Shown one piece after another: positions 57,206 to 64,000 of a stretch of 64,000 nt of DNA; position 1 is the first letter of the stretch; each line of letters starts with the position of its first letter. Location: contig NZ_BMIK01000011.1 in assembly GCF_014642075.1 (NCBI RefSeq), positions 3,550 to 67,549 of the forward strand, written 5' to 3'. The translations under genes were made by a program, and so were the position numbers. The DNA comes from Parapedobacter defluvii (GTDB lineage Bacteria > Bacteroidota > Bacteroidia > Sphingobacteriales > Sphingobacteriaceae). Below the pieces are notes generated by a model that was given only the letters and a program-made list of their open reading frames with translations, did not search any database and was not told the origin of the DNA.

Positions 57206-57371
57206 TTATGCTTACGATAGACTGACAGATGCGTTCGTCTTACGACCAAAAACAACATCCTGTATCGTGTATTCTTTATTTTAGACGAAACCTTTTCTGT
57301 CGTTTCGGGTGGGGAAGTTCCAAATTGTAATCTTACCCTAACTAGCTACATCCAAAACTAAAAAATTCCAA
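57206..57371. other. Short gap with broken frames
   Basis: Between the small gene and the IS3 remnant one forward frame reads ILDETFSVVSGGEVPNCNL before a stop, without any start codon in reach. It is probably a gene fragment. No RNA or promoter is seen. Confidence 0.3.
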
Positions 57372-57524
57372 TCAGCTGTGCATGCCTGCGTACTTCTTCT
57401 TCCAGTTATAAAAAGTGGCTTGGTGCACACCCAGTTCACGGCAGATATCCGCCGTGGATTTACCTGACTCGTGTTGTTTGATAGCCGAAACGATCTGGCT
57501 CTCTCTGATTCTTGTCTTTTTCAT
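57372..57524 (-). pseudogene. IS3-family OrfA remnant
   Basis: From the ATG at 57524 the minus strand encodes about 50 residues: MKKTRIRESQIVSAIKQHES, KSTADICRELGVHQATFYNW, KKKYAGM, then HS and a stop. This is the helix-turn-helix start of an IS3-family (IS407-like) OrfA, which is normally near 90 residues; the leucine-zipper half and OrfB are missing. It marks an old insertion at the downstream border of the LanC/glycosyltransferase operon. Confidence 0.85.
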
Positions 57525-57605
57525 CGTTCTGTGGTTAAAGTTACGAATTCTCGCATTCCAACCAGTCCGATTTTTTGGAAGGGTTACAGTTGGATTGTTG
57601 TGCAA

Positions 57606-58277
57606 TTAGTAATTCCGCTGTCCTTGCAAGTTTATTTTGCATTGATGGATATTGATGTATGACTCAATCATCAAAGAATACCACTCTTTATCTAATAAAG
57701 ATAAGAAATCCGACTTCGATATATCTGTTTGGTGAAACCCAAATTGACCATCCCACGGTCGGGATTCAATACTAAATTTTAGAGCTGTTTCATCGTCAGC
57801 GAATAAGAAGCCTTGTTTTTCTAAATGCTGTCTGTGGACTCTGCAGATTATGAAGTCTTCCGGATGAAATTGTGAGATCGTATTGTCTTCTGAAAGAGCT
57901 TTCAATAGAGAACGACTTCTAAGACTAAACCCACCATTGCCAACACATTTATCGTTCCAAGGAGCCCCTATATAATCATAGCTTAGGAACTGATTTCTCC
58001 ACCCTTTGGGATTAAGAACGAAACCGTCCCACTGAATTACAAGCGCAAAAGGCGTATCAATATATTGGTATAATTTCTTAATCATAAATTCGCTATACTG
58101 TTCAACGGTCTTCAATGGCTCAATGGGAATAATATATGGAGAATTGCATCGGATACTGCTCAACAATTTTATTGCGCCAAAATTTATTTCTTTTTGCGAG
58201 ATTTCCGCGGCCAGTATTAATCTTTCGATATTTACACAATCTACACCGACCAAGGTCACATCTTTTAATTGTAACAT
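57606..58277 (-). CDS. DUF5672 glycosyltransferase-like protein
   Basis: This 223-residue protein matches DUF5672: LIQWDGFVLNPKGWRNQFLS, YDYIGAPWNDKCVGNGGFSL, RSRSLLKAL. The family is regarded as glycosyltransferase-like; QWDGF takes the place of the DxD-type region. It would transfer a sugar to an acceptor, here possibly a peptide. It is the last gene of the minus-strand operon, 54 bases after the first LanC-like gene. Its AT-rich codon use differs from the housekeeping genes to the left. Confidence 0.82.
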   Translation of the reverse strand: MLQLKDVTLVGVDCVNIERLILAAEISQKEINFGAIKLLSSIRCNSPYIIPIEPLKTVEQYSEFMIKKLYQYIDTPFALVIQWDGFVLNPKGWRNQFLSYDYIGAPWNDKCVGNGGFSLRSRSLLKALSEDNTISQFHPEDFIICRVHRQHLEKQGFLFADDETALKFSIESRPWDGQFGFHQTDISKSDFLSLLDKEWYSLMIESYINIHQCKINLQGQRNY

Positions 58278-58331
58278 TGCCTTATTTATTAAAGTAGTTT
58301 AATTGCGATAGGAATAAAGCGTCTCCACTTT

Positions 58332-59582
58332 TTAAAGTAATAATATTTTGTCCCAACACTTGTCGCTTGCCTCTCCTGAAGCAATGCCCATCAAACCGAG
58401 CCCTACACCGCTACTTCCGTTCAGTATGCCAAATCTTAGAGTCGATGGAAAGTTGCTCCTGTAACTGTCAAGAGAAGACGTTCTATCACCATAATAGTCA
58501 AGGATCGTCTTTAGCCAATAGTCAATAGCGGTTGATAGATTATTTAATTCAAATTTTTGACGAAGTTTATGAAATAAATATGTATACCCGATGCTACCTT
58601 GACAGAAAAATATATCTTGCGCTGAATTTTTGTCGGTAGTATAGCTAGCGCATTGCTTAACATGCTCAGAGATTTTAGATGCCAAAACGTTTTCCCCTAA
58701 ATATTCCAAAGCATCTAACAAGTTATAACTAATGCTTAACTCTCCTGTAGACCAAGCCAACTTAGAGCTCGGGCGTCTATCATAATTAAAACTGTCATTG
58801 AAAAAATCGGGAAAAAATAAAGAGTCACGTCTAGTGGTAGTTATGATAGTCATTAGCTTACAACACACTTGTTCGATCATAATTCTCACTTTTTCTATAT
58901 TCTTTCCCTTCTTGGACACCTGCCGCAAAACAGCTAAAAAACCTGCTTCACCGTGCGCTAGCGTCAGGTTATCTTTATAAGATAAGGATGTCAACATCTT
59001 CTTTGACCTCCTAATAGGTTTTTGAAGTGCTTTATTTTTCATAATTTCCGCTAAAAGCCCAGTAACATCCCAATCTTCTGAGTTTAAAAAGGCGATGATT
59101 CCTAAAGAACCAAAAAGATAATCGTTGTTTTCTAAAGCGACAGCTCGATACGCTACTGTTTCTAAATAGTTATATGTTTCAATACTAAAGATTTCCATAG
59201 GTGGATCAGCAAGGTATCCACGCTGATAAAGAATATTTAATCCCCATAATATTCCAGTCAGCCCGTTAGCAAGATAGGGATTAATGGTTTTTGAACTCAC
59301 GATGTTTTCTACTGCTTCAGTGACTAGCTTGCCGCCTATTTCAGCGTATTTTTCGTTTTGTGTATATTCATAATAATAATAATAGAAAAGGGCTAGCCCC
59401 ATTCGTCCATTAAGTAGGCCATTATTGTTCAAAAGATCTCCATTCGCCAAATGGCCTTCGGCTATAATGTGAAGCACGTTTTTAATTTTATCACTATATA
59501 GCCCATGATATATAGGATGAGGTTGTGGTTTACAAAGTGATGGCGGTATGGAGTTGTTCATTTCGAAAGGAGGTAATTCCAT
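58332..59582 (-). CDS. LanC-like protein, zinc site incomplete (copy 1)
   Basis: This 416-residue alpha/alpha-barrel protein follows the LanC cyclase layout: LNGRMGLALFYYYYY, YLANGLTGILWGL, LAHGEAGFLAVL (His210 corresponds in place to NisC His212), LAWSTGELSISYNL, FFCQGSIGYTYLF and ILNGSSGVGLGLMG. LanC enzymes close lanthionine rings using a zinc held by Cys, Cys and His in WCYG and CHG. Here the first is WSTG (Ser278) and the second is CQG (Cys327, Gln328), so two of three ligands are replaced. It may have lost cyclase activity or use another mechanism. It starts 31 bases after the other LanC-like gene. Confidence 0.85.
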   Translation of the reverse strand: MELPPFEMNNSIPPSLCKPQPHPIYHGLYSDKIKNVLHIIAEGHLANGDLLNNNGLLNGRMGLALFYYYYYEYTQNEKYAEIGGKLVTEAVENIVSSKTINPYLANGLTGILWGLNILYQRGYLADPPMEIFSIETYNYLETVAYRAVALENNDYLFGSLGIIAFLNSEDWDVTGLLAEIMKNKALQKPIRRSKKMLTSLSYKDNLTLAHGEAGFLAVLRQVSKKGKNIEKVRIMIEQVCCKLMTIITTTRRDSLFFPDFFNDSFNYDRRPSSKLAWSTGELSISYNLLDALEYLGENVLASKISEHVKQCASYTTDKNSAQDIFFCQGSIGYTYLFHKLRQKFELNNLSTAIDYWLKTILDYYGDRTSSLDSYRSNFPSTLRFGILNGSSGVGLGLMGIASGEASDKCWDKILLL

Positions 59583-59613
59583 GTTCTAGAAAAAGTATTA
59601 ATTTACGCTTTTC

Positions 59614-60825
59614 TCACTGTACTTTATTTACATATTGATATGGTCTGCCTAAGCCAAGTAGGGAATCCCAATTCGACGGGTCTTCAGAAATAATAGACAA
59701 GATTGTAATTGCAGTTCCTGATAAACCATAGCAAAGACTGTGATCTGAATCTTTAATTTTATCGCTGATAATACGTTTCTCCAAATCCGCAAGTATCATG
59801 CGGTAGGCTTGAATAATTGCTTTACGCAAAAATGGTGAATTTTGGAATCGATGGAGTTTGTGGCAAATATACATGATTCCAGCCAACCCATTTCCAAAAG
59901 ATAGATTGCTGGTATAGTTGTCAAAATTAGATTGGACAGCGCTTTCTGCAAAATGAACGGCCCATTGCGCTAATCTTTTATCGTTCAAATATGTAGAAGC
60001 TATATAGAGTGAATTAGCAAGTAATAATGTATCGTATTCACTCCACAACGCACCGATGTTTTTTTTTCGTTGAAGGAATAAAAGCTTATACGAAGCATTT
60101 CTTAGCTTTTCTAAAAACTCGGCTTTGTCTTGAAATACAAAATGCGCATCACATAATAATGGTATAAAGGAGTGTTCGATTTTGTCGATATATAAGTCAC
60201 TAATGTATCTAGTCATATTAAAGTCTGTGCTTATCTTGTTCCCAAATGAAAGCTCTGTATACCGTAATACTTTTTTTAAGAGTTCAAGATTTTCACTTTT
60301 TATTTCTGGGGTGGATATCCTAGTAGACTTTAACTTACCAATTAGATACAAACCAATTCCTACCATACCCGTGGAGACAGAAAAATCTAAAAGATTATCA
60401 ACGAATAGATATTTATTGATTAACGAATCCAGAGAGGAAAATGTGTCCTGATCGACTTCAAAATACCGACTTTCATGGCAGAAAGTTAAACCAATATCCA
60501 CACCTAAAAAGCCGCATTTCATCGAATATATGTTGTTAAATTCATTAAATGTCCAGTCGTTTTTGGGGCTTTTAATAGAAATGAAATTTTTCTCTAGACG
60601 AGAAAAAGCTGTGTTTGTGAGTCGTATGTCATTTGTAAATTTCGAGTATTCCAAAAGAAACACACATAGCCCCATATCCCCTTTAAAAAGTCCATTTGAA
60701 GAGATTGGGGATATCGATAACATTTTTGAGAGATTCGATAGAATTGTTCTGGCATTTTCCTTATCAGAATCTTTAATAGGTAAATGATTGCAATATTTAT
60801 AAGTTTCTTTGCCGGTGCGGTTCAT
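59614..60825 (-). CDS. LanC-like protein, zinc site absent (copy 2)
   Basis: This 403-residue protein is a diverged LanC-like barrel: GLFKGDMGLCVFLLEYSK, VSTGMVGIGLYLIGKL, ALWSEYDTLLLANSLYIA, LSFGNGLAGIMYICHKL and LCYGLSGTAITILS keep the spaced Gly motifs of the barrel. The zinc motifs are gone: WSEY (Trp261, Ser262) stands for WCYG, and SFG (Ser309, Phe310) stands for CHG; the catalytic-type HG motif is also lost. It is therefore unlikely to be a classical cyclase and may bind substrate or be a partner of copy 1. It begins 15 bases after the glycosyltransferase gene. Confidence 0.8.
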   Translation of the reverse strand: MNRTGKETYKYCNHLPIKDSDKENARTILSNLSKMLSISPISSNGLFKGDMGLCVFLLEYSKFTNDIRLTNTAFSRLEKNFISIKSPKNDWTFNEFNNIYSMKCGFLGVDIGLTFCHESRYFEVDQDTFSSLDSLINKYLFVDNLLDFSVSTGMVGIGLYLIGKLKSTRISTPEIKSENLELLKKVLRYTELSFGNKISTDFNMTRYISDLYIDKIEHSFIPLLCDAHFVFQDKAEFLEKLRNASYKLLFLQRKKNIGALWSEYDTLLLANSLYIASTYLNDKRLAQWAVHFAESAVQSNFDNYTSNLSFGNGLAGIMYICHKLHRFQNSPFLRKAIIQAYRMILADLEKRIISDKIKDSDHSLCYGLSGTAITILSIISEDPSNWDSLLGLGRPYQYVNKVQ

Positions 60826-60840
60826 CTCTAAATCTATTTG

Positions 60841-62535
60841 TTATTTTTTCACTATCGAATAGCGTTTTTCATAATTAATATCGATTAATTTATTATATAC
60901 GCCTTTCTCATAAACGTCTTCAACGATTCGAAAATATTTAGAAAGGTGGAGATTGCTAATGATATAAGGGAAGAGTATATCACTCCAATCTTTCGCTGAT
61001 TTTCCCCAGATACTTGAGTCGCTTGCTCTCGTTTGAGATTCATAGTGATATGCTACCAAACTTCCTAATGTTATATTTTTTAGCCCGTGCTTCAGGCACT
61101 CTAGGTTGAACTCAACATCTTGATAAACATCTTTATACGATTCGTTAAATCCCCCAACTTTCTTAAAAGTCTCATATTCAACAAACATGAATGCTCCCGT
61201 ATTCCCAACTGTATATTCGCTCTCTGTACTAAATCCATAACGGTATCCTAGAAAGCGATGTGAAATAAAAATTCTATTGTCTCCTCGGTGGAATATATCT
61301 ATGCCAAGGTGTTGAATTCTATTGTTTTCAAAAAGCAGTTTAATTCCTAGTGTGCCAATATTTACGCCTTCCTTAGATTTTTGCTCGTATTCATATAAGC
61401 AGCCGTCGATACAATGGTTTATAAATTTCACATCGTTGTTGCAGAATAAAAGAAAATCATCCACTACACAATGCCCTTGCTGTGCTAAGAGCGAGACAAT
61501 CAGATTATTTACTTTAGAATAATGGTAAAATCCAATATCTAAGAAATTATAGTGGCTAATTCCTCTTTTAGTTTTGCTAAGCGAGTTTTTTGCGTCCGAT
61601 TTATTATTTAACTCCTCAAGTTTTTGTCTAATCAAAACTTTATTTGGTTCTTCGGATCCAGTATCACCTATCCAAACACAATAATTCGCATAGACAGTGG
61701 TTGTAAAAATGGAATCTAATAAATCAAAAAGCAGCTTAAGTTGATCTTTCGTGAGTATGATTATATGAACAAACCTTTGCATATTTTCAATAGGAAAGGG
61801 GTTATAAGACTCTAGTTCGACATCGTTGATCCTTTCGGCAAGGAAGTTTCCAGGGTATTTGCGAAGAAACAAATTTCGATTTTCCTCCCACTCGGGCGTT
61901 AGGTTTCCAGTCGAATTGTGGTAAAGTTTAATGCTGTGATTCGTTATTACACCTATTTTTACTCCACATTTGAAATTACGGATGCAAAACGAAACATCGT
62001 AGAAATGATAGCCTTTGAAATCTTCGTCAAAATTCTCTTTTATTCTTGATCTATTTACTAACAGAAAGACCCCGTCAACGACTACCGCCGGAGTAATCAG
62101 GCTGGCTTTTCCGCTCCACCATAAATCTATGATGCCATCTTTATGATGTGGATGAAATATCAGCCCTAAAGTATTGTCTTGGCCGCTATCAAACCATGCG
62201 CCTTTGTCTCGCTTTTCATTAAGCTCAGCAGTTCCGGCAATTCCTAAAATGCCGTATTCGCTTTCTGCCAATACTTTAACTAAACTTGGTCCCCAATCAT
62301 TTTCTAAAAACAAAGTATCGTTATGAATGAATAGAATTGTTTCGGAGTCTGAATCAATAAGCGCTTTGTTATATACTTCGCTTAAAGAAAACTGATTGAA
62401 ATTCTCGTATTTCTGAATTGTTATATTTTCGTGTGGAAACCCCGACGTTCGCAAAAGCATACGTTCAAAAATTTCGTTTTGTTCGGCGGTATAGTTGCTC
62501 GAATAAGCTATGGTTAGAAGAGTTTGTCCTGTCAT
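60841..62535 (-). CDS. Double-domain family 2-like glycosyltransferase
   Basis: This 564-residue protein appears to contain two GT-A-type domains. The first (about 1-230) has LLTIAYSSNYT and ILFIHNDTLFLENDWG, with HND as metal-binding motif; the second (about 255-540) has VHIIILTKDQLKLLFDLLDS, LLFCNNDVKFI and FVEYETFKKVGGFNESYKDV, typical of GT2 enzymes. No membrane segment is visible, so it is cytosolic. The likely acceptor is a peptide or protein handled by the same operon, which is inference. The start ATG at 62535 follows a 165-base gap after the HlyD gene. Confidence 0.85.
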   Translation of the reverse strand: MTGQTLLTIAYSSNYTAEQNEIFERMLLRTSGFPHENITIQKYENFNQFSLSEVYNKALIDSDSETILFIHNDTLFLENDWGPSLVKVLAESEYGILGIAGTAELNEKRDKGAWFDSGQDNTLGLIFHPHHKDGIIDLWWSGKASLITPAVVVDGVFLLVNRSRIKENFDEDFKGYHFYDVSFCIRNFKCGVKIGVITNHSIKLYHNSTGNLTPEWEENRNLFLRKYPGNFLAERINDVELESYNPFPIENMQRFVHIIILTKDQLKLLFDLLDSIFTTTVYANYCVWIGDTGSEEPNKVLIRQKLEELNNKSDAKNSLSKTKRGISHYNFLDIGFYHYSKVNNLIVSLLAQQGHCVVDDFLLFCNNDVKFINHCIDGCLYEYEQKSKEGVNIGTLGIKLLFENNRIQHLGIDIFHRGDNRIFISHRFLGYRYGFSTESEYTVGNTGAFMFVEYETFKKVGGFNESYKDVYQDVEFNLECLKHGLKNITLGSLVAYHYESQTRASDSSIWGKSAKDWSDILFPYIISNLHLSKYFRIVEDVYEKGVYNKLIDINYEKRYSIVKK

Positions 62536-62700
62536 CGTTTTTTGATTTATATTCTGTAAGGCAACATTGGTTTCTAAAGGCGTTCTAAAAGATTAAAAAA
62601 GGGAAAGCAGGGTTGTTTTTACCTTTGGGTTGCAAAACAGATCCTTTCTTAATGTCAAATATCGACGTATTCAAAAGTGATAGGGATATACTAAGCAGCG
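62536..62700 (-). other. Gap between HlyD and glycosyltransferase genes
   Basis: This 165-base AT-rich stretch holds no obvious minus-strand precursor gene. On the plus strand TACCTTTG occurs at 62620-62627 and a 34-codon frame begins at 62652 and runs antisense into the end of the HlyD gene. Neither is convincing as a gene. Confidence 0.35.
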
Positions 62701-63990
62701 TCACCTGCGTTCCATCACTAGTCGCATACTCCGCAGTAATCGCTGCATCAGTGTAGCATCCTCGGTGATTATTTCTGCCGTACCGATCATGCCCGTGGTT
62801 AAATAAATCGGGCTGCCAGATTCCATAGGCTTGAAATCCACGCGTGAAAGGAAGATGCTATCCCGGTAGGGTACCTTATTAAGCTTAGCCACTGTTCCCA
62901 ATACGACCCCATATTCCTCGAACGGATAGCTTGCGAGTTTGACTAATACCTGCAGCCCGACTTTTACCTTCCCCATATTGAGCTGCGGGATGACCGCTTC
63001 GCCGAAGAAATCTGTACTACCGGCGTTGACAAGGAATACCTCCCTTCCGCTCTCGATATGCTGGTATGGTTGGATAATCCCAGAGAAGATGACGGAGCCC
63101 GGTGTCGGGGCCGTAAGCACATTTAGCATCTTCCATTGCTGCATCTCGCTGACTAAGCTGTTAAGCGCTTGCTGGAACTTCGCTCGCTCCTCCGCGATTT
63201 TATTGTCCAGATCGGCCAGTTCCCTAGTTTTGCCCATGCGTGCAGCCTCGATGGAAAGCAGGCTTGATGCTGTTTGTTGTAGGGGATGCTGCTTAGCGAG
63301 CAGTGCGGCCCGTTCCTTTTGGTATTCGGCAGGTGAGATTACTTTCTTATCCGCAAGTTGCTCATAGCGCATGAATTCGGTTTCAGCGATATTAAATTCC
63401 CGCTGTTGCAGCTCTTGTTGTTTGACTAATTGGGCCCTTTGCTGGCCAATGTTTACCATGTCGCGGAGAAGATAATCCCGTTGTTTCCGGTAGATGCCGT
63501 CTTCTTTGGCAGCCCGGTAGCTTAGGTATGACTGGTAAAAGGCCTGGTATCCCGGCTGTAACTCCCCCAACCGGATCCTCGAGGGTGAGACAAAATCATC
63601 TGATACTGTCCCTTCGGGCGTATACAAGCTGTCTCGAATGCGTTCCAGTCTTTCCAGCATATCCAATACCTGCTGATGATCGGCCGTGCTTTCCATCCAG
63701 GCCAATTCCTGCCCCTGTTTAACAGCTTGGCCGTCTTCAACCAGAATATTGACGAGATTGCCGGCCACCCTGCTGACAACGGGCTTGGGCGCATTGACCG
63801 CATTGACACGGATTGGGGCAATCACCACATCGGGATACTTGATAAATACAGATAACGCTACGATGACTAGTAGCACCACCAACACCCAGGTAATGCCCCA
63901 CCTCATTAGCGCAGCGGGCGGGGCGCTGATGATATCCTGCACATCTTCAGAATGGATTTGCCGCCCATTGTGTGATGCACTCCTACCCAC
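62701..63990 (-). CDS. HlyD-family secretion adaptor
   Basis: This membrane-fusion protein of at least 429 residues has one N-terminal helix (about 35-55, TWVLVVLLVIVALSVFIKY), a biotinyl-lipoyl half (VAGNLVNILVEDGQAVKQGQ), a long coiled coil (about 130-300) and a C-terminal HlyD_3-like barrel. It links an inner-membrane ABC exporter, often one with a peptidase domain that cuts double-glycine leaders, to an outer-membrane channel. The first codon visible is GTG at 63990; the frame stays open to the window edge, so the true start may lie outside. Its base composition resembles the housekeeping genes more than the AT-rich genes that follow it. Confidence 0.9.
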   Translation of the reverse strand: MGRSASHNGRQIHSEDVQDIISAPPAALMRWGITWVLVVLLVIVALSVFIKYPDVVIAPIRVNAVNAPKPVVSRVAGNLVNILVEDGQAVKQGQELAWMESTADHQQVLDMLERLERIRDSLYTPEGTVSDDFVSPSRIRLGELQPGYQAFYQSYLSYRAAKEDGIYRKQRDYLLRDMVNIGQQRAQLVKQQELQQREFNIAETEFMRYEQLADKKVISPAEYQKERAALLAKQHPLQQTASSLLSIEAARMGKTRELADLDNKIAEERAKFQQALNSLVSEMQQWKMLNVLTAPTPGSVIFSGIIQPYQHIESGREVFLVNAGSTDFFGEAVIPQLNMGKVKVGLQVLVKLASYPFEEYGVVLGTVAKLNKVPYRDSIFLSRVDFKPMESGSPIYLTTGMIGTAEIITEDATLMQRLLRSMRLVMERR

Positions 63991-64000
63991 TGTAATATGG

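Follow-up and report, generated by a model that had tools for sequence, protein, structure and literature searches.

A probable glycosylated, disulfide-bonded GG-leader peptide cluster with a GT25-like glycosyltransferase pair in Parapedobacter defluvii

The DNA analyzed here (the window) is a stretch of 64,000 nucleotides from Parapedobacter defluvii, positions 3550-67549 of contig C11 in a genome of 5.8 Mb and 66 contigs, and it ends in five minus-strand genes that belong to a larger cluster. In coordinate order, these genes encode a DUF5672 protein of 223 amino acids (aa) at 57606-58277 (PF18922, E 1.2e-21); the LanC-like proteins LanC-a (416 aa, 58332-59582; LANC_like, PF05147, E 6.1e-28) and LanC-b (403 aa, 59614-60825; PF05147, E 7.1e-15); a two-domain glycosyltransferase (GT) of 564 aa at 60841-62535, in which a Glyco_tranf_2_5 domain (PF13712, E 9.2e-24) is followed by a weak GT2-like domain; and an HlyD-type adaptor (HlyD_3, PF13437, E 7e-7), the open reading frame (ORF) of which covers 62701-63990 (429 aa) and continues to 64000. 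The intergenic gaps are 54, 31, 15 and 165 bases. An earlier note on this DNA had listed the same genes, gaps and domain identities; the ORF coordinates agree with it, and so does Pfam, where all domain calls of the five genes pass their cut-offs except that of the second GT2-like stretch of the two-domain GT (PF13632, E 0.024). The HlyD gene is truncated by the window edge: its upstream ATG lies 32 bases past position 64000, and the whole gene encodes 443 aa (L003 6251-7582, where L003 denotes positions 60000-79999 of C11 and an L003 position equals the window position minus 56450).

The five genes are not a closed unit; they are the tail of a same-strand run of eleven genes, six of which lie past 64,000, with gaps of -8 to 230 bases. 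All on the minus strand, these six genes encode a C39-peptidase ABC exporter (PCAT; 726 aa, L003 7595-9775; PF03412, E 1.5e-37, with ABC domains); two GT25-like proteins, GT25b (224 aa, L003 9802-10476; PF01755, E 4.3e-4) and GT25a (226 aa, L003 10469-11149; PF01755, E 6.8e-4), both under the Pfam cut-off; a TlpA-like thioredoxin protein (527 aa, L003 11146-12729; PF13905, E 1.6e-8), with a lipoprotein-like start read by eye; a precursor of 100 aa with a GG leader (L003 12960-13262); and a fusion of C39-like, VKOR and thioredoxin domains (C39-VKOR; 552 aa, L003 13403-15061; PF07884, E 2.1e-11; PF13462, E 1.8e-8; PF03412, E 6e-6). The earlier note had proposed a glycosylated and exported ribosomal peptide, had connected LanC-like cyclases with lanthipeptide and GG-leader pathways, and had pointed beyond 64,000 for a peptidase-containing ABC exporter and a short GG-leader gene, both of which are present. 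A polysaccharide or unrelated export locus, which it had named as the finding that would speak against it, did not materialize; instead, the C39 exporter, the GG-leader gene and the two GT25-like genes are found there. Given these genes, the most plausible product is a ribosomal peptide that is glycosylated and exported, and the gene content points to a probable glycosylated, disulfide-bonded GG-leader peptide cluster.

The precursor consists of the 27-aa leader MKKLKLDFKNVGEILTREQLKQIVGGG and a core of 73 aa, which has four Cys and includes DASGSGQSS. The NCBIfam model TIGR04149 matches it at E 0.05 only, and a leader profile built here, with this very leader in its seed set, recovers it at 4e-14. 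The start (TCxVYLPS) and the end (WCCDSCxSASWY) of the peptide recur in locus L187 (Hoylesella oralis) and, partly, in locus L212, which is from the same genus as the present genome; both precursors end in WCCDxC, like that of P. defluvii. At L187 there is a GT25 pair, and the core carries VGGSG in its middle; L212 has a related precursor without GT25 and without Gly-Ser-Gly (GSG). No match to the LanC-like proteins was found in the L187 or L212 loci, which indicates that the four Cys need no LanC. We read these Cys as probable disulfides, made by the C39-VKOR-thioredoxin and TlpA-like proteins; disulfide formation by an oxidoreductase has been proposed for the bacteroidetocins (PMC6671954).

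In a sample of 301 family genomes, 34 gave GT25a matches (E up to 1e-3), of which some are weak or fragments. A scan of named genomes, started from an 18-row GT25 alignment, used the best 80 of 128 relatives, located at 77 loci; the titles of all 77 are Bacteroidota, with Pedobacter, Mucilaginibacter, Chitinophaga, Niastella, Sphingobacterium, Flavobacterium, Chryseobacterium, Hoylesella and Tannerella among them. Altogether, we examined 108 GT25 loci, including 11 duplicates, i.e., 97 distinct loci; the weak GT25a loci L125-L127 and further weak matches lie outside the 108. The pair is fused at 64 of the 97 loci and encoded by adjacent genes at 27 (91 pair or fusion), with 6 showing neither arrangement. 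It is accompanied by PCAT at 69 loci, HlyD at 59, C39-VKOR at 62 and a GG precursor at 67 (L157, counted here, was later dropped). At least one of PCAT, C39-VKOR and the precursor is present at 91 loci, and none at L115, L124, L137, L155, L199 and L211. The conserved core is the GT25 pair, the exporter and the precursor, all outside the window.

Additional GTs recur around this core. In counts obtained by single-linkage clustering, with one representative per cluster scanned against Pfam, Branch/GT14 proteins occur at 9 distinct loci, capsule/GT32-type proteins at 10, GT2 at 8, GT10-like at 8 (barely above the cut-off), another GT32-type at 4 and GT11 at 3; the representatives of two recurrent clusters had no Pfam match, and a cluster of 7 distinct loci (representative L099) lies outside the Pfam scan. 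The family GT14 includes peptide xylosyltransferase. Five GT25 loci (L164, L170, L191, L192 and L200) carry proteins of 913-989 aa from one cluster, the scanned member of which (L164) is an outer-membrane beta-barrel protein; four of these five are metagenome-assembled genomes, one of them from water-buffalo omasum. We recognized no description of a GT25 pair with GG-leader peptides in the open PMC literature, in a search in which several queries were narrow and which left subscription papers mostly outside.

Evidence on the acceptor comes from the peptide cores. We compared 97 cores from 66 GT25 loci to 57 cores from 34 control loci, which have the same exporter, C39-VKOR or LanC genes and no GT25-profile match in the fetched stretch. 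The 34 control loci are those with a usable precursor among 47 searched (40 hand-picked and 7 LanC loci); of the 99 precursors from GT25 loci, 2 with too short a core or without a clear GG were left out, and so was one control, whose locus has a GT25-profile match. GSG was found within the first 12 core residues in 50 of 97 GT25 cores versus 2 of 57 controls (p 9.9e-11), or, counted by locus, in 39 of 66 versus 2 of 34. The corresponding numbers are 57/97 and 8/57 for GSG anywhere in the core, and 76/97 and 8/57 for Gly-Ser within the first 12 residues. Among 1843 tripeptides, GSG ranks first (p 2e-8, uncorrected), and neither GTG (10 versus 2) nor GG (48 versus 27) separates GT25 cores from control cores. 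Within the first 25 residues, GSG is present in 54 of 99 cores, compared to a mean of 6.6 and a maximum of 16 in 2000 shuffles.

The association persists when related loci are compared. For 62 pairs matched by leader (at least 65% identity; 16 distinct controls), GSG is found on the GT25 side only in 41 and on the control side only in 0. Trees were built for PCAT (72 loci) and C39-VKOR (80 loci), each including every locus with a precursor and a long enough PCAT or C39-VKOR. Branch-independent pairs favor the GT25 side by 9 to 0 for GSG anywhere and by 11 to 2 for Gly-Ser in the first 12 residues in the PCAT tree (13 pairs), and by 12 to 0 and 16 to 2, respectively, in the C39-VKOR tree (21 pairs). 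It appears from these comparisons of sequences that, in a larger group of Bacteroidota clusters, the peptides tend to carry GSG where a collagen-type GT25 pair is present; the present cluster is best read as a variant, set apart by additional GTs and by LanC-like proteins without zinc ligands. Two cores from this set (L163 6071-6397 and L174 3423-3686, the latter from Chitinophaga arvensicola) open with long Gly-Ser repeats ending in Glu-Glu, similar to serglycin-type repeats.

The fold was modeled for a relative of the GT25 pair; the underlying alignment has 36 rows, all of them fused GT25 proteins of named loci. The model of the L145 fusion (Niastella vici) has a pLDDT of 91.8 and a pTM of 0.88, and its top PDB match is human COLGALT1 (E 4.3e-15). 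The eight best matches include four COLGALT1 chains, one LH3/ColGalT1 complex and three further matches to two entries titled only glycosyltransferase; LH3 and mimivirus R699 and R655 come after these. The R655 match covers one domain (rmsd 4.5-4.8), and the GT25 profile matches R655 at E 1.1e-4. The motif CEDDH is kept in 33 of 36 first domains and in 17 of 36 second domains of the fusions; in P. defluvii, GT25a has CEDDH and GT25b has CEDGH.

We assign a probability of about two in three to the explanation in which Ser in GSG is O-glycosylated by the GT25 pair and the glycan is enlarged by other GTs, with export and oxidation as later steps. The cluster would yield a single GG-leader peptide. 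Its Gly-Ser-Gly tract (here the mid-core SGSG) would receive a sugar on Ser from the GT25-like pair while still in the cytoplasm, where the DUF5672 protein and the two-domain GT2-like protein would extend this glycan or add others. The LanC-like pair would not act as zinc cyclases and more likely would hold the peptide or act on the glycan. PCAT would cleave after GG and export the peptide with HlyD, and the C39-VKOR-thioredoxin and TlpA-like proteins would then join the four Cys in disulfides or proofread these bonds. The product is perhaps a bacteriocin. Among solved structures, no relative of the two-domain GT was found at E up to 1, and the DUF5672 protein has a single one, at E 0.77 only; its AlphaFold2 model, computed without an alignment, reached a pLDDT of 30 and was not used. 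We take the GNGGFSLR stretch of the DUF5672 protein to be a glycosyltransferase-like sign.

Several observations weigh against this explanation. The distribution is patchy: in a sample of 296 genomes from across the phylum, GT25a was found in 2 at E up to 1e-15, the present genome included. The fold match was obtained for a relative, and the PF01755 matches of the P. defluvii pair itself are under the cut-off; moreover, over the whole chain, L145 fits COLGALT1 loosely (TMq 0.30, rmsd 21), with TM-scores of about 0.3 and rmsd values of 21-22 for the whole-chain matches in general, which means that the domains are placed differently and only the domain folds agree. In view of CEDGH in GT25b and the retention of CEDDH in only 17/36 second domains, one half of the pair may be inactive. 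As for the acceptor, 40 of the 97 GT25-linked cores have no GSG, those of the four LanB-GT25 clusters considered below included, and GSG is also present in the 8 control cores mentioned above. In the P. defluvii precursor, SGSG sits in mid-core and not directly after GG, and among shuffled versions of this core 16% contain GSG and 2% contain SGSG. By the measure of Gly-Ser in the first 12 residues, this cluster points in the wrong direction in both trees. Its partner in the PCAT tree is L212; in this pair GSG is on the GT25 side, but Gly-Ser directly after the leader is on the opposite side (AGSC in L212). Its partner in the C39-VKOR tree, L213, also carries GSG. Finally, the controls were hand-picked, and the absence of GT25 was judged within the fetched 10-20 kb only.

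If the product were a glycosylated lanthipeptide, an unlinked LanB would dehydrate the peptide, the LanC-like proteins would close thioether rings and the GTs would add sugars. The genome does contain one full-length LanB (Lant_dehydr_N and C, 1061 aa; L253 11490-14675), unlinked, on contig C13, and at L109/L175, L148, L162 and L172 a gene of LanB size occurs together with a LanC-like gene, PCAT, HlyD and a fused GT25; Pfam identified the gene as LanB at L148 and L172 only, and all four are themselves possible glycosylated lanthipeptide clusters. Yet LanB, for which the earlier note had suggested looking beyond 64,000, is absent among the eleven cluster proteins by Pfam, and in the 30 kb around the C13 LanB, which adjoins regulator-like genes, the profiles labelled no precursor, exporter or LanC-like gene; PF05147 matches only the two cluster proteins in this genome. 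Zinc ligands were compared in a LanC alignment of 41 rows (35 distinct sequences, the two from P. defluvii included), in which 35 rows have the first zinc ligand (C), 30 the second (C) and 29 the third (H), and 28 have all three. Instead of C/C/H, LanC-a shows S/C/Q, having lost two of the three ligands, and LanC-b shows E/G/N, having lost all three; a local match of LanC-b to LicM2 would place C/Y at the second and third positions, with His lost either way. Among the relatives, the LanC-like proteins of three distinct clusters (L109, L148 and L162) keep one zinc Cys and have lost the two other ligands, those of L020 and L029 show equal partial loss, and that of L172 keeps all three. Because the cluster has no LanB and its LanC-like pair lacks zinc ligands, lanthionine formation here is unlikely; in addition, the VKOR and thioredoxin genes indicate disulfides, and related precursors with an equal Cys end occur in loci without a LanC match. 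A lanthipeptide was therefore dropped as the leading explanation and seems improbable to us, so that, of the earlier proposal, the data support the glycosylated and exported peptide and not the lanthipeptide. Nor was the expected co-occurrence of its five families found in the sample of 301 family genomes. There, the best-scoring LanC-like matches outside the present genome have 24-28% identity (with short matches up to 37%), long matches to LanC-a do not exceed 28%, and the two-domain GT is matched over residues 6-277 and, separately, 339-522, with none of the matches listed spanning both domains. Since neither LanC-a nor the two-domain GT over its full length has a close relative in this sample, the exact set of five genes could not be shown to be conserved. 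The lack of linkage between LanC-like and GT genes in relatives, which was to count against the earlier proposal, is seen in part only, given the linkage to GT25 at L109/L175, L148, L162 and L172.

It is somewhat easier to imagine, albeit still unlikely, that the substrate of the GTs is an envelope glycan or a carrier and not the peptide, with Gly-Ser-Gly being a mere flexible spacer. PF01755 is named for lipopolysaccharide biosynthesis, and DUF5672 is found in 9 of 60 relatives, the present genome included, with no GT25a match in the 7 others that were searched. However, GT25 is linked to the exporter, C39-VKOR or the precursor at 91 of the 97 loci, and GSG tracks the GT25 pair among leader-matched precursors and independent pairs. 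The least likely explanation, with only a slim chance, is that of an unglycosylated, disulfide-bonded, bacteroidetocin-like peptide, with the GT and LanC-like genes as passengers or in decay. L212, where not all ORFs were scanned, combines the same exporter and oxidoreductases with a related precursor, and no match to the GT and LanC-like proteins of P. defluvii was found there. The composition of the P. defluvii cluster is mosaic: the DUF5672, LanC-like and two-domain GT genes have a GC content of 34-37% and the GT25 pair has one of 37-41%, as opposed to 45-52% in the HlyD, PCAT, TlpA, precursor and C39-VKOR genes and 48.7% in the window up to 57,000. Transposase remnants flank the cluster, at 57326-57605 (with an HTH_Tnp_1 piece at 57372-57605 by Pfam) and, upstream, at L003 15774-16225 (an integrase-like piece read by eye), and the two share a perfect inverted match of 50 bases; a DDE transposase gene follows at L003 16644-17849. 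The low GC of the sugar genes and the remnants on both sides fit a sugar module that joined an exporter cluster. Against this explanation, all eleven frames are open and tightly packed, GT25a retains CEDDH, and the core in P. defluvii has SGSG, whereas that of L212 has none.

If glycosylation of the GSG serine by the GT25 pair is true, a Gram-negative phylum would gain a family of glycosylated peptides in which the acceptor motif can be predicted, together with a new type of enzyme for peptide glycosylation, and the motif renders the claim of glycosylation directly testable. The zinc-less LanC-like proteins, noted earlier in Bacteroidales without LanB (PMC10352776), might find a possible home here. 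More tentatively, and with a chance slightly below even, there may be a large undescribed Bacteroidota family of glycosylated, ribosomally synthesized and post-translationally modified peptides (RiPPs), in which a double GT25 resembling collagen galactosyltransferase O-glycosylates Ser of GSG, up to serglycin-like (Gly-Ser)n, in Cys-rich GG-leader peptides, with swappable accessories of GT2, GT10, GT11, GT14 and GT32 types that would make the glycans differ. Bacteria would then have a parallel to collagen or proteoglycan Ser-Gly glycosylation.

Among known systems, COLGALT1 and mimivirus R655 and R699 probably share GT25-type domains with the pair. COLGALT1, which has these domains in tandem and a Gly-rich protein as acceptor, differs by an identity of about 10%, by its domain arrangement (rmsd 21 over both) and by the acceptor, proposed here to be Ser of Gly-Ser-Gly. 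Glycocin clusters have a C39 exporter and thiol-redox proteins, and the GG-leader precursor and C39 exporter of this cluster are alike. In the glycocins of Gram-positives, a ribosomal peptide is O- and/or S-glycosylated by a dedicated GT (PMC12457901). Unlike these, the present cluster has a GT25 pair, Gram-negative hosts and a proposed Gly-Ser-Gly acceptor, and no SunS-type NCBIfam model matched the two-domain GT, DUF5672 or GT25-like proteins. The Bacteroidales RiPP loci BGC3-5 are described with LanC-like proteins lacking zinc motifs, no LanB, radical SAM enzymes and, for BGC3, named glycosyltransferases (PMC10352776). They share with this cluster the LanC-like proteins without zinc motifs and the lack of LanB, and differ in the radical SAM enzymes, for which there was no Pfam match among the eleven cluster proteins. 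The bacteroidetocin loci, also from Bacteroidota, are alike in the small four-Cys GG-leader peptide, the thiol oxidoreductase and the peptidase-containing ABC transporter; they comprise four genes, with a leader of 15-16 aa and a mature peptide of 42 aa, and the main text of the paper nowhere uses the stem "glycosyl" (PMC6671954). The cluster of P. defluvii, by comparison, has four GT or GT-like genes, two LanC-like genes, a leader of 27 aa and a core of 73 aa.

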